A stretch of DNA of 64,000 bases from Alphaproteobacteria bacterium (GTDB lineage Bacteria > Pseudomonadota > Alphaproteobacteria > UBA6615), in NCBI GenBank assembly GCA_022449545.1, contig JAKUPN010000009.1:1-64000 (forward strand). The letters run 5' to 3'. The translations under genes and the position numbers were made by a program. The notes beneath the pieces are model-generated. The model saw only the letters and a list, made by a program, of their open reading frames with translations. It did not search any database and was not told the origin of the DNA. Below, piece by piece: positions 3,617 to 55,528 of this stretch; positions within the stretch are counted from its first letter, which is position 1, and each line of letters starts with the position of its first letter.

Positions 3617-5383
3617 TTAAGGAGCAGACGTAGATCGAAGCTCTTCAGTAGCAGGAACATCAATATTACCAAGCTCGTCAAACACTACTTTATAAACTTC
3701 CTCAGCACGGTTCATGCTTACATAGTCTTCATTCACATCATGGAGAACCATTTCAGGGTTTCTCTCAATTGGTTCTCCATACCCCCCACCTCCAGTGGTC
3801 ATAGAAACTATACGTTCTCCAACCTCCAGAGAAACTACACCAACATTGGTTAGTTCAACTCGATCTCCATTCCTAGATATTTTGTAATGCTGAGAGGGGG
3901 TACCGTGTAATCCTCCACGAACTCCTTTCGCTGAATTTTTTGATCCATCACTTATATAAGCAACATCCATTTTTCCTCTTATTGGCCCATACTCACTATA
4001 AGCAGAGCGCGCTCCACAAAATCGGCCAGCGCCTTCTGTATCCTTAATAAACTCACGAGAATGAACGTAAAGTGGATGTCTTAACTCATCTAATTCAATA
4101 CTATCATAGTAGCACAAACCGCCATTTCCCACATGACAAATGGTCTGCCAACAATCAGCTTCTGGACCTCCTGCACCTCCTGTAAAAGCTAGCATTATTT
4201 GGTTAACATAGGGTTTCCCGTTAATTGGATCGATTCCTGAAATCACTCCAAGCCCGGGAGTAAAGATTCCTCCACACTCTGCCAAACCCAGGCCGTCAGA
4301 TATTTCAGCCATTGCTGACTGTGTTGGATTTGTAACTCTATCAGCAACGTTTGTGGTTGCTGCTGAACAAGAAGTCGGATGTGATGGTATGCCGCAAACG
4401 GAATTTTTCTTCAAAAGAACTTTTATTCGTCTGAACGAACCTGCATTTTTTGGAACCGTATGGTCTATAGAATTGAACACACCTACCATGGCTGCAGTTC
4501 TTGAGCAGGCCTCTGACAAGTTAAGACCACACGGCAAAGAATCTGGATTATCCAACAGATCAACAGTTATTTCTGCTGCTTTTGGGTCTATTGACACAGT
4601 AGATTTAATAGTTATTCCTTCCTCAGGAGTTCCAGGAATTGGATCATGGGTTGATCTACAACTTGCTTTTCCTTGAGGTAGATTACCAATGGCAGTAACC
4701 ATTCTTTGTTCAGAATAGTTAAACCATTCTTCATTAAATTTTTCTAAATTATCCCAGCCAACTTCTCTGCCTAACTCCAAAATCTCTCGCTCTCCAATAC
4801 GAGCCGCTCCAATCATTGCAAGAAAATCGCCCCACCACTGATCAGGGACCCGAATACGCATCCGGCACATACGAACTATGTCCATATTTGTTTCATAGTT
4901 TTCTTGTACCTTTGTAGCCGGAAATATTAAAGCTCCTTCTTCGTAAACATCTCGTGCTGTCCCGTGATAGGTCGTAGGAATTGAATTGCCTATATCAGCT
5001 TGATGAGCCTTTGCGGCAACCGTATATCTGTGTACCCCATCATCATCAATTACCGGAACAAGAATTGTATGATCTGCAGGATGGGAGCATCCATGATAAG
5101 GAGAGTTATGAAGAAAAGCATCTCCCCTTCTTATATCTGAATGAAAAGACATCATAGATTCAGCCATTATATCTGGGCCGGAAAGAACATGAATAGGAAG
5201 ACTCTCGGCAACTGCCAGTAATTCGTGTTTACCTGTCAAAATGCAACAGGAAAAATCACGAGCTATATTTAATACTCCAGATCGACCGGTGCGCATCAGA
5301 GTATTACCCATTTTACGAGATATGCCCTCGAATCGATTAGACAACAGCGCTAATTTAACTCCATCAACACTCTCATTATTCAT
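3617..5383 (-). CDS. hydantoinase B/oxoprolinase family protein (first HyuB copy)
   Basis: A 588-residue HyuB subunit, clearly paralogous to the downstream 1823-3610 product. It has RTGRSGVL, NSPYHGCSHPADHT, KAHQADIGNSIPTTY, LNLSEACS, PSHPTSCSAATTN and a terminal TGGGGYGEP block. I placed the start at 5383 (MNNESVDG...), where AGGAG lies 6 nt upstream. The reading frame is open further upstream but that part overlaps HyuA deeply and is not family-like. The chosen start overlaps the HyuA stop by 8 nt, typical of translational coupling between A and B subunits. The B subunit supplies the half of the active site that works on the ATP-activated cyclic amide or ketone in known members. Confidence 0.93.
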   Translation of the reverse strand: MNNESVDGVKLALLSNRFEGISRKMGNTLMRTGRSGVLNIARDFSCCILTGKHELLAVAESLPIHVLSGPDIMAESMMSFHSDIRRGDAFLHNSPYHGCSHPADHTILVPVIDDDGVHRYTVAAKAHQADIGNSIPTTYHGTARDVYEEGALIFPATKVQENYETNMDIVRMCRMRIRVPDQWWGDFLAMIGAARIGEREILELGREVGWDNLEKFNEEWFNYSEQRMVTAIGNLPQGKASCRSTHDPIPGTPEEGITIKSTVSIDPKAAEITVDLLDNPDSLPCGLNLSEACSRTAAMVGVFNSIDHTVPKNAGSFRRIKVLLKKNSVCGIPSHPTSCSAATTNVADRVTNPTQSAMAEISDGLGLAECGGIFTPGLGVISGIDPINGKPYVNQIMLAFTGGAGGPEADCWQTICHVGNGGLCYYDSIELDELRHPLYVHSREFIKDTEGAGRFCGARSAYSEYGPIRGKMDVAYISDGSKNSAKGVRGGLHGTPSQHYKISRNGDRVELTNVGVVSLEVGERIVSMTTGGGGYGEPIERNPEMVLHDVNEDYVSMNRAEEVYKVVFDELGNIDVPATEELRSTSAP

Positions 5384-51073: not shown

Positions 51074-51970
51074 ATGAATCTAAAAGTGGGCGTCAGCGGT
51101 TTAGGAATTATGGGGGGAGCATTTGCTGTGAATCTAGTCAAGAACGGGTTTCAGGTAACTGGCTACGACCCTAACAGTAAAAGAAAACAAAAATTTAAAA
51201 AATCAGGTGGGAAAATTGCTAGAAGCAATAAAGAGTTGGCCATGAAGTCAGATGTTATTATTACCTCATTGCCGACAGCATCTGTTTTAGATGAGGTCAT
51301 ACAAGGTAGATCTGGAATTGTTTCAAGTGGCAAAAAAAATCTAGTTTTACTTGAAGCCAGTACTGTAAGTTTTGCAGAAAAAGAGAGAAATCGTTCTGCT
51401 TTAAAACTAATTAATGGCACGATGTTAGATACGCCTGTCAGTGGCGCCGGTAGACAGGCTGAAGCGGGCGAGATATCAATAATGATCAGCGGACCAAAGT
51501 CAGCCTATAACAAAATTAAGTCAATATTACCAGGATTTACAAAAATACACTACTATGTAGGAACCTTTGGTGAGAGCACAAAGTTAAAGCTTTTGATTAA
51601 CATGTTAATTTCTGTTCATGGAGCGGCTTTTGCAGAAGCCATAACTCTGGCTAGGGCATCTGGGGTTAATTTAAAAACGTTTCAAGAAGTACTAAAACCT
51701 TCTGCAGGAAACTCAAGAGTAATTGAATACCGTGGTCCATTGATGATTGACGATGAGTATTCAGACTTAAATGTTAAAACAGCTGATTTAACAATAATGA
51801 TGAAAGACAATGAGTTAATCGAACAATATGCTAAAGACTACCGTGTGCCAGTGCCAGTATTTCTTAATAGCATGTCACTAACCTACGCTGCCTTATCACA
51901 GGGGTATGGTGATCATGACCCTGGAGTGATAACTCGGATTTGTGAACAAATGGCAGGAATACCGAGATAA
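51074..51970 (+). CDS. 3-hydroxyisobutyrate dehydrogenase-like NAD(P)-binding protein (copy 1)
   Basis: A 298-residue beta-hydroxyacid dehydrogenase. The N-terminal Rossmann motif is GVSGLGIMGGAFAVNLV. The substrate motif DTPVSGAGRQAEAGEISIM follows, and the catalytic Lys lies in TKLKLLINM (second Lys, aligning with the K-x-x-x-N of the family). The C-terminal helical domain resembles HIBADH/tartronate semialdehyde reductase/glyoxylate reductase. A clear AGGAGATATC site precedes the ATG. It is followed by a homologue at 52037; the pair is divergent from the Gfo/Idh pair. Confidence 0.9.
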   Translation: MNLKVGVSGLGIMGGAFAVNLVKNGFQVTGYDPNSKRKQKFKKSGGKIARSNKELAMKSDVIITSLPTASVLDEVIQGRSGIVSSGKKNLVLLEASTVSFAEKERNRSALKLINGTMLDTPVSGAGRQAEAGEISIMISGPKSAYNKIKSILPGFTKIHYYVGTFGESTKLKLLINMLISVHGAAFAEAITLARASGVNLKTFQEVLKPSAGNSRVIEYRGPLMIDDEYSDLNVKTADLTIMMKDNELIEQYAKDYRVPVPVFLNSMSLTYAALSQGYGDHDPGVITRICEQMAGIPR

Positions 51971-52036
51971 ATAATCTTCAATGAGAAGCGTCCAAAGTTA
52001 ATTTTAAATTTATTGTTAATTCATTGGGAGAGTTTT

Positions 52037-52912
52037 ATGAATCTCACGGTTGGTGTCATAGGACTAGGTAATATCGGAAATGGAGTTGCAAAAAACATAT
52101 CTAAAAAAGGATATAAGGTTCTTGGGTTTGATATCGACCCCAATCGTATGGACGAGTGTATAGCTATATCGGTAAACAGCATTGAAAAGATTGCTTCCCA
52201 AAGCCATTTTCTTTTAGTGGCAGTTGCAACGCTGGAAGCATACGAAGAAGTGATGAAAATTATATCCATAAATGCATCTGATAAGCTTATCGTCGGTGAC
52301 TTATGCACCTTTTCAGAAAAAACAAAGAAACAATCCTGTCTTATGCTAGCCGAGAATGGAATCGTCCTAATTGATTGCCCAGTATCAGGAGCCCGACCAC
52401 AATCTCAAGCAGGAAAACTTTCAATGACCGTTAGTGGGAAGAAACCTGCTTTTGACAAAGTAGAAACCATTCTTAATAGCTTTTGTAGATCAGTAATTTA
52501 CGTTGGTGAATTTGGAGTTAGTATTAAAATAAAATACATTCTAAATCTAATGATCGCCATTCATAATTTAACTTGTGCAGAAGCCTTTGTAATGGCCGAA
52601 AAAGTGGGTGTTGATTTAGAGCTCTTTGTCAAAGTAGTTAAAAATAGTAGCGCACATTTAGAGATTTTTGATACGCGTGCTGATAAGTGGATCACTGGAA
52701 ACTATGATAAAGATATAACCGCAGCACTAGGGATAACATTGAAGGACAAATTAGTTATTCAAGAATTTGCCGCAGAACACAACATTCCAACACCCTTATA
52801 CAAAGTGGCAGGGAAATATTATGATGAAGCAGCTATGCGTGGATGGAACGAGAAGGACGCAGCAGTTATCCTTAAACTGTTAGAAGAAAAAACGGGAATA
52901 ACCAGGGATTAA
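52037..52912 (+). CDS. 3-hydroxyisobutyrate dehydrogenase-like NAD(P)-binding protein (copy 2)
   Basis: A 291-residue paralogue of the gene just upstream: GVIGLGNIGNGVAKNI, DCPVSGARPQSQAGKLSM and IKIKYILNLM with the likely catalytic Lys. I chose 52037 (GGGAGAG upstream, MNLTVGV parallel to MNLKVGV of copy 1). Divergence between the copies is large, so this is an older duplication with probably different substrates. Its terminal helices KYYDEAAMRGWNEKDAAVI resemble the copy 1 C terminus. Substrates may be C3-C4 hydroxy acids. Confidence 0.9.
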   Translation: MNLTVGVIGLGNIGNGVAKNISKKGYKVLGFDIDPNRMDECIAISVNSIEKIASQSHFLLVAVATLEAYEEVMKIISINASDKLIVGDLCTFSEKTKKQSCLMLAENGIVLIDCPVSGARPQSQAGKLSMTVSGKKPAFDKVETILNSFCRSVIYVGEFGVSIKIKYILNLMIAIHNLTCAEAFVMAEKVGVDLELFVKVVKNSSAHLEIFDTRADKWITGNYDKDITAALGITLKDKLVIQEFAAEHNIPTPLYKVAGKYYDEAAMRGWNEKDAAVILKLLEEKTGITRD

Positions 52913-52998
52913 TAAATCAATATTTTTTATATTTTCTAGAAATCGTAGACTAAGATTGTTCAAACATAACTCTGTAATTATTAAACCATTTGGGACAT

Positions 52999-54036
52999 AT
53001 GATGGACATAAAAATGATAACTGAGGAGATAACTGGACCTGGAGCTTGGCTGGGTCCAGAAATCCAGAACGATCAGAGCTGGTTAATGAACCTTGATGAG
53101 GACGATATTAACGAAATAGAAGCCGCTTTAAGTTTAATCAAGGAATCGAAAATAAAAATACCATTTCCTGCCAGTTCTTTTGATATACCTAACTTACGAA
53201 AAAAAATAAGGTCTTTAGCTCACTCAATCAATCAGGGCGCTGGCATCGTGCTACTGCGTGGACTACCCCGCGATAAATATAGTGATATAGACTGTGAGAT
53301 TATATATTGGGGTATTTGCATACAAATTGGTACCCCAGTTTCGCAAAATTCAAGAGGTCATTTGTTGGGACATGTTCGTGATGAAGGACGTGATATCAAC
53401 GACCCTAATGCCCGTCCATATCAAACATCGAGTAAAATGGATTTTCATTGTGATCTTATGCCCGTAGATATATTAGGACTCTTCTGTTCAAGAGCAGCAA
53501 AAAGTGGTGGTGAGAGTTATGTGATAAGTGCCGAAACCTTACATAATGTCATACTAGCTGAACGTGCTGACTACCTAGAAGCTCTCTACCAACCCCTTAA
53601 TATTGACTGGGCGGGCGAAGAACCAGAAGGCACTGATCCTTGGTATTCCATGCCAATGTTTAGTGTTGCAGATGGAAAAATTACATCCCGTATAACGAGT
53701 CGCAGGTTTGTACAAATGGTAACGCGTCACGGAAAGTTTCTAGCAGCAACAAAAAAACAACTTGAAGCAATAGACTTCGCTCAACAGGTGGCTCAAAGAC
53801 CAGAGCTAAGACTAAAAATGGTGCTCAAAGAAGGAGACATGCAGTTTCTAAGTAATCATAGGACTTTGCACGGACGCTCGTCCTTCACAGATGATGAGAC
53901 AAACAGCAAAAGACACCTAATGAGAATGTGGATCAGCTTGAATGACAAAGAAAGAAGACCTCTGTCCCATTTACTTGATGAGCGTTACAGCTGGGTAAAA
54001 AATGGAGGCATTCCCCAAAAAACAAATTTAATATAA
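52999..54036 (+). CDS. TauD/TfdA family Fe(II)/2-oxoglutarate dioxygenase
   Basis: A 345-residue non-haem iron dioxygenase. The iron ligands are His150 and Asp152 in MDFHCD and distal His291 in NHRTLHGRSSF, and Arg305 in KRHLMRMW fits the 2-oxoglutarate carboxylate anchor. The N-terminal VLLRGLPRDKY is also typical of the family. It hydroxylates an unknown substrate using oxygen and 2-oxoglutarate. I favour the ATG at 52999 with GGGA just upstream, but the adjacent ATG at 53002 is equally possible. It precedes the selenocysteine-type GST by 79 nt. Confidence 0.9.
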   Translation: MMDIKMITEEITGPGAWLGPEIQNDQSWLMNLDEDDINEIEAALSLIKESKIKIPFPASSFDIPNLRKKIRSLAHSINQGAGIVLLRGLPRDKYSDIDCEIIYWGICIQIGTPVSQNSRGHLLGHVRDEGRDINDPNARPYQTSSKMDFHCDLMPVDILGLFCSRAAKSGGESYVISAETLHNVILAERADYLEALYQPLNIDWAGEEPEGTDPWYSMPMFSVADGKITSRITSRRFVQMVTRHGKFLAATKKQLEAIDFAQQVAQRPELRLKMVLKEGDMQFLSNHRTLHGRSSFTDDETNSKRHLMRMWISLNDKERRPLSHLLDERYSWVKNGGIPQKTNLI

Positions 54037-54115
54037 TTTTAGGAGTTACTTTAACCTATGTTTTAAAGCAAACTATTAGTGTCTCGATTTTATTCTTAAT
54101 TAAAGGAAATATTAT

Positions 54116-54808
54116 ATGACTAAATATCACCTTGTTAGCTCGTTCACCTGACCTTGGGTGCAGCGCGCCGTGATCATAATGCGTGCGAAGAAAGTTCAAT
54201 TTGACGTGACGTATATTAACTTACTGGATAAACCCAAATGGTTTTTAGACATTTCACCCCATGGTAAAGTGCCTCTGCTAATGGTGGAGAATAGAGTTCT
54301 ATTTGAATCGAACGCGATTGCTGAATACCTAGATGAAGTAGTTCCTCCACAATTACATCCAGTTGATCCCATTAAAAAAGCACATAACAGAGCCTGGACA
54401 GATTTCGTACCCGAATTTGCTAAAGTCCTTGGAGCCATAGGATATTCAAAAAGCCTAGATGAGATGAATGAAGCCCTATTAAATGCCCCTAAAGTTCTCG
54501 CGAAAATTGAGGAAGCACTGATAAACCAGGATGAGGACGGTCCATTTTTTAATGGAAAAAAACTCTGTTTGGTAGACGCAGCTTATGCTCCTTTCCTACA
54601 ACGATATAGGCTTATCGATAAAATGCTCAATAATAACGTCTTAAAGAATTTCCCACATATTAACTCTTGGACCGATAATCTGCTTTCTGATGAAAGGGTT
54701 ATTTTAGCTGTACCAGATAATTTTGAGGAAGAATTCCTTGCCTCTCTCATACGCAGAAAAACGTATGCCTCTTCATTTATCAAAGATTCGAACTTAGCGG
54801 CAGAATAA
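54116..54808 (+). CDS. glutathione S-transferase family protein, probable selenoprotein (in-frame TGA at codon 12)
   Basis: ATG at 54116 follows AAGGA by 8 nt and opens MTKYHLVSSFT, then TGA (54149-54151), then PWVQRAVIIMRAKKVQFDV. Related GSTs read CPYVQRA at this place, so the TGA replaces the N-terminal active-site Cys. The same frame continues for 219 codons with no other stop: the thioredoxin-like domain (SPHGKVPLLMVE, FESNAIAEYL) and the helical GST C domain with LVDAAYAPFLQRY. A SECIS-like hairpin follows the TGA (54163-54186). Read-through gives 230 residues. The alternative, a pseudogene with one nonsense change, would not explain the position of the TGA or the hairpin. A start at the GTG 54158 would lose the active site. 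Sec machinery genes are outside the window. Confidence 0.8.
54163..54186 (+). promoter_or_regulatory. candidate bacterial SECIS hairpin
   Basis: GCGCGC (54163-54168) pairs with GCGTGC (54181-54186), six pairs with one G-U, closing a 12-nt loop CGTGATCATAAT. The loop begins 18 nt after the TGA, inside the 16-37 nt range described for bacterial SECIS elements, and has G in its first two positions, as the consensus requires. A small lower stem (CTT 54153-54155 with AAG 54188-54190) is possible. The pairing was found by eye and not by folding software. Confidence 0.65.
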
Positions 54809-54826: not shown

Positions 54827-55528
54827 ATGATTTCTTACAAGATACATAATCCACATGGATATAGAGCTGAAGACCCCCGTTTTGGTCTTTCGGGCGAAGA
54901 GTTAAAAAATTATTATTTATCACAGCCAACGCAATTTTACGTTAAGTGCATTTACAAGCAAGAATCAAAAAATTCATTAACTCAGGCATCATCCGCCCAT
55001 GAGCTAAATATTAAATTATTACTTAATGACATCCAATTCGTGGGCCCTCTTTTGTCCGAAGACAATGATACAGAAATAGGCATGATGTATATAATGAATA
55101 TGCCGAATCGTAATTCTGTCGAGGCGTTTCTTAAAAAAGATGAATGTTATAAACTAGGACTAATAGAAAAAATAGAAATTTATAGATTTATTAACAGTAA
55201 AAAACACCGATTTGGAGATCGTTCACCTGATACCCAAATGCAATTGTTTGTCTGTGAATGTCTAGATAAAAAGAATATAAGTGACCTTCGCTCTAAAACC
55301 TCAGAGGCACACCATAATTACCAGGGGCAGATTATAAATAACTATTTCGCACACGGCCCTTTAAGAAGTGATGATGGAGTTAATTTGATAGGCAGTTTAT
55401 TTATTATAGAGGTAGAAAATATGAAAGCGGCCAAAAAGTTGGTGGCCTCTGAACCCTTTACAAAAGCGGGCGTTTTTAAAACCACCACAATAACAGGCTG
55501 GCGTTACAGTCACTTTCTAAAATCATAA
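54827..55528 (+). CDS. protein with two YCII-related domains
   Basis: A 233-residue protein with two tandem YCII-like (ferredoxin-fold) domains. The first (about 37-122) has FYVKCIYKQ, HELNIKLLLNDIQFVGPLL and DECYKLGLIEKIEIYRF. The second (about 141-229) has LFVCECLD, HHNYQGQIINNYFAHGPLR and SEPFTKAGVFKTTTITGW. Each keeps the histidine of the YCII helix (AHE.. / AHHNY..) and the terminal Ala/Gly-Val-Phe region. Single-domain YCII proteins are typically about 95 residues and dimeric, so this fusion would make an intramolecular dimer. It follows the GST by 18 nt and is probably in the same transcript. Function is unknown. Confidence 0.82.
   Translation: MISYKIHNPHGYRAEDPRFGLSGEELKNYYLSQPTQFYVKCIYKQESKNSLTQASSAHELNIKLLLNDIQFVGPLLSEDNDTEIGMMYIMNMPNRNSVEAFLKKDECYKLGLIEKIEIYRFINSKKHRFGDRSPDTQMQLFVCECLDKKNISDLRSKTSEAHHNYQGQIINNYFAHGPLRSDDGVNLIGSLFIIEVENMKAAKKLVASEPFTKAGVFKTTTITGWRYSHFLKS

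Follow-up and report, generated by a model that had tools for sequence, protein, structure and literature searches.

Selenocysteine (Sec)-containing glutathione S-transferases (GSTs) are known from ocean DNA. Working with the Global Ocean Sampling, Zhang and Gladyshev in 2008 reported a Sec-containing GST family (COG0625) of 12 sequences (PMC2398784), and the initial annotation of the present locus was thus right that such proteins had been reported from marine metagenomes. GST-like selenoproteins also appear in two later reviews, as PPR62222.1 in 2022 (PMC9312934) and as MEK9676863.1, with PF13409, in 2026 (PMC13188914). The gene considered here lies in a 64,000-nucleotide stretch of alphaproteobacterial DNA (the window), from a genome of 2.25 Mb that is 96% complete. 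Like the published genes, it is from a marine bacterium, encodes a GST domain, which matches PF13409, and has an in-frame TGA for Cys. We found no essential difference from the published proteins, other than that the present gene is seen in whole genomes, together with sel genes and relatives. Orthology to the published sequences is likely, and the gene is an additional, well-supported case of the selenoprotein type reported from ocean DNA in 2008.

The initial annotation proposed a ribosome binding site followed by a frame with TGA at codon 12 and a full GST, and this picture is borne out by the AAGGA sequence, the 230-residue frame and the Pfam domains (Table 1). Translation from the ATG reads MTKYHLVSSFT, the TGA, and then PWVQRA and onward to a TAA at 54806-54808, with no other in-frame TGA. 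GST_N_2, GST_N_3, GST_N and several GST_C models match the protein, most of them above cut-offs, and the N-domain matches begin at residues 4 to 11; by Pfam, structure model and fold search alike, the product has both the N- and the C-terminal GST domain. It had also been foreseen that an ORF caller taking TGA as a stop would lose the catalytic residue. A standard caller (table 11) indeed returns only 54158-54808, a 216-residue product with a GTG start and no codon 12, so that standard annotation shortens the Sec-GST and drops the predicted catalytic residue.

Table 1. Features of the Sec-GST locus (window coordinates).
Feature	Position	Strand	Evidence
Shine-Dalgarno-like AAGGA, eight bases 5' of ATG 54116	54103..54107	+	direct reading
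Sec-containing GST, 230 aa, TGA (predicted Sec) at codon 12	54116..54808	+	GST domains, TGA-bearing orthologues, confident GST fold
TGA, predicted to be read as selenocysteine, active-site position	54149..54151	+	26 of 26 close orthologues with TGA; Cys homologues with TGC or TGT
Predicted SECIS hairpin, 6-bp stem GCGCGC/GCGUGC, 11 nt past TGA	54163..54186	+	same-place fold in most relatives
GCC-GTG codons (Ala18-Val19), codon-invariant; loop GU 54170-54171 at +19/+20 from TGA	54167..54172	+	codon comparison, 21 Sec sequences
YciI-domain protein (PF03795), next gene	54827..55528	+	beside Sec-GST in family f1

How widely is the TGA kept? It stands at the codon 12 position in all 26 close-orthologue loci, which range from 51 to 100% identity, come from at least five families, and include a few same genomes reached by two routes. 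Each of the genus's three genomes, like each of the 16 genomes of the order that carry a close orthologue, has the gene with exactly one TGA. The closest public genome found is MarineAlpha12_Bin1, at 89% identity. When 385 genomes of the class were sampled, four other families added TGA forms (52-57% identity), while all other homologues in that sample are at most 45% identical and have no stop; no further TGA forms of the GST were found in a wider phylum sample. The distant homologues have TGC or TGT, hence Cys, at this position, in the motifs CPWVQRA, CPFVQR and CPYVQRA. The correspondence of TGA with Cys that had been claimed for this gene is therefore confirmed, as is the conserved in-frame TGA aligned with Cys that one looks for in a selenoprotein. 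The sole exception among the distant homologues, L070 of genome G005, has Gly (GGC) in place of Cys or Sec; that genome has selB, and no Sec-GST was found in it. In a maximum-likelihood tree the 21 Sec forms make up one clade (branch support 100/97), and its sister is a clade of Cys forms with SFKTCPWVQRA or SFKTCPWVHRA. These nearest sisters, the alphaproteobacterial GSTs L090-L094, share the motif and length of the Sec-GST but have TGC or TGT at the position and are only 41-45% identical to it.

The search for decoding genes that the initial annotation called for yielded the full set: selA (598 bits), selB (450 bits), tRNA-Sec(UCA) (selC; 72.5 bits) and selD all lie on contig C12 of this genome, in a region of about 8 kb. 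The selD product has Cys in its active-site loop (GGCGAK), and a single ORF of 762 residues joins it with an FAD/NAD dehydrogenase-like part (L100:2719-5007, G000:C12). The tRNA-Sec gene (4972-5067) is directly upstream of selD, and the two overlap only in a GTG-started extension. The sel region also holds a Cys-type GST paralogue with SSATCPFAQR (L100:649-1341, G000:C12), about 1.4 kb from selD, and related Cys GSTs are present in most genomes of the order. Among 24 genomes of the order, selB is present in all 16 that have the Sec-GST. Four of the eight genomes that lack the Sec-GST lack selB, and all four selB-less genomes lack the Sec-GST; the hypergeometric p for this association (70/10626 = 0.0066) is only indicative, the genomes being related.

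What else might the decoding system serve in this genome? A bacterioferritin-comigratory-type peroxiredoxin with TPG[U]TKEACAFRE (L117, minus strand; TGA at 1618 of the reverse complement; G000:C3:36112-36495) has its TGA at the peroxidatic Cys position, and is probably a Sec peroxiredoxin. A peroxiredoxin-like gene with an in-frame TGA, in RGHW[U]PYCRRQL (L118, minus strand; TGA at 1615 of the reverse complement; G000:C5:15310-15675), probably encodes a second such protein. With these two further TGA genes, at peroxiredoxin active sites, the decoding system thus appears to serve several clients. A Sec formate dehydrogenase, which might have explained why the genome keeps sel genes, was considered and rejected, as no match in the genome rose above the cut-off and the matches are without TGA. 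No SelW-like protein was found in the genome.

Bacterial Sec insertion is expected to depend on a hairpin downstream of the UGA, and the initial annotation pointed to one at SECIS-like distance with G in its loop. The hairpin is present at such a distance, its loop has GU, and its loop codons are constrained, but the evidence from fold energy and covariation is weak. Every proposed check that was run spoke for the initial annotation, and only on the hairpin had it claimed more than fold energy and covariation can prove. Against dinucleotide shuffles of 54149-54200 the fold energy has z = +0.29, and among synonymous shuffles 4% match the fold energy of the native hairpin region or better it. 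The mean z of this region against synonymous shuffles is -0.75 for the Sec genes and -0.59 for the Cys genes, and we rejected such z-scores as proof of a SECIS since they hardly separate the two groups. Covariation of the fixed 6-bp helix, with one compensatory cell only, was likewise too weak to count. Members of families f96 and f81, and locus L069, have a shifted helix, in which the pairs are of the GGGC/GCCC type and the loop, CGUGAUU, is 7 nt long. An Rfam search returned no SECIS match here, the sole match being a sub-threshold one to pntA. Codon usage is a stronger signal than either energy or covariation. In the 21 Sec sequences there are 40 invariant residues of 4- or 6-fold degeneracy, and only Ala18 (GCC) and Val19 (GTG) use a single codon throughout; codon identity is 1.00 at these two, 0.66 at the next residue, and 0.35 at the median of the 40. 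Such invariance at the loop is what an RNA element that is read through its loop would be expected to leave in the sequence. The predicted element resembles the SECIS of E. coli fdhF in being a hairpin after the UGA with GU in the loop, at +20/+21 in fdhF, one base farther than here, and differs from it in stem sequence and loop size; binding by SelB is here only predicted.

The structure model of the protein is a GST fold (pLDDT 93.8, pTM 0.91) in which residue 12 lies between a strand (4-8) and a helix (13-24), at the start of the helix, and so in the model it occupies the place of the catalytic residue of GSTs. Omega GSTs, with their catalytic Cys in CPF, are near the top of the profile search, and tau and omega GSTs are mixed among the closest Foldseek matches. 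The position expected of the omega class, that of a catalytic Cys in a CPF/Y motif at the start of helix 1, is found here with predicted Sec in place of Cys. The human omega enzyme GSTO1 (PDB 1eem and others) shares the fold and, where helix 1 begins, the CPxxQR motif, but has Cys at that position and is only about 24% identical.

The neighborhood of the gene gives a further hint. The YciI gene is next to the Sec-GST in the seven f1 relatives whose sequence reaches that far (L050, L054, L101, L102, L103, L107, L108). Upstream of the Sec-GST, at 51074-54036 of the window, are two neighboring 3-hydroxyisobutyrate-dehydrogenase-like genes and a TauD/TfdA-type oxygenase gene, and this upstream arrangement recurs in several f1 relatives. 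Taken together with YciI, these neighbors point to a cluster for catabolism or detoxification. The neighborhood is not common to the Sec-GSTs of the other families examined, though L110 has a TauD of its own nearby.

How secure is the reading of the TGA? The conservation of the TGA, its correspondence with Cys, the presence of decoding genes and the codon-level constraint together lead to the conclusion that the gene encodes a selenoprotein, and on these comparisons we regard Sec at codon 12 as highly probable. Recoding of UGA to Cys by tRNAs that resemble tRNA-Sec is known in some bacteria, and one might think that the UGA is here read by a tRNA inserting Cys or Trp, or by general read-through. 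Such a reading is very improbable: of the best eight tRNA-Sec matches, the only one with the UCA anticodon is a canonical tRNA-Sec that has complete selA and selB genes beside it; the presence of the Sec-GST tracks that of selB; and TGA ends nine of the 54 long ORFs in the window, an ordinary stop, so that genome-wide recoding can be rejected. Could the TGA instead be a true stop, in a pseudogene or through a sequencing error, or is only the internal GTG-start product made? The persistence of the table 11 ORF after the TGA would fit, but the chance of this is close to negligible. The same TGA is found in the 26 loci, in several families, the 11 residues that precede it are conserved (KYHLISSFT/SSIT), and the frame is open to the end in the relatives. 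Decay would not leave a stop in place for so long between conserved flanks, and a sequencing error would not recur in orthologues with as little as 51% protein identity; by these alignments and the tree, both can be ruled out.

Given Sec, what does the enzyme do? When Sec was introduced chemically at the active-site Ser of a tau GST, the enzyme acquired strong glutathione peroxidase (hydroperoxidase) activity (PMC10812501), and by this analogy a peroxidase or reductase role for the natural Sec-GST is plausible; we hold such chemistry to be a real possibility, at best an even one. A narrower proposal is that the protein is mainly a glutathione-dependent peroxidase or reductive (dehalogenase-like) enzyme of the neighboring catabolic cluster, rather than a conjugating transferase. 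The tau GST result and the retention of the TauD/TfdA-type oxygenase and YciI neighbors in several f1 genomes speak for it, and the absence of a common neighborhood in the other families examined speaks against it; we view it as rather unlikely. More speculative still, and improbable at present, is the proposal that the GST clade, not once found with Cys in these genomes, is obligate for Sec, and that its members are by nature glutathione peroxidases or reductive enzymes built on a GST scaffold and coupled, in a catabolic pathway of marine bacteria, to a partner of the YciI type.

The explanation that we favor is a cytosolic omega/tau-like GST with selenocysteine as its predicted catalytic residue. 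SelB would deliver Sec-tRNA(UCA) to the UGA at codon 12, directed by the putative SECIS hairpin with its invariant loop CCGUGAU; were the UGA not decoded, translation would end after 11 residues, or begin internally and yield a product minus the catalytic residue. The predicted Sec, placed where helix 1 begins, may behave as the catalytic Cys does in omega GSTs and form a mixed selenosulfide with glutathione. Thiol transfer, reduction or peroxidase-type reactions that depend on glutathione would then run faster than with Cys.

What the present analysis adds is the clade structure, the loop codon signal, the link in occurrence between the gene and selB, and the gene neighborhood. The gene, its orthologues, the decoding genes, the codon signal at the putative SECIS and the Cys sister clade make a firm genome-level case for a family that had been documented mainly through metagenome reads and tables in reviews, and give a defined target for the question of why a GST retains selenium.
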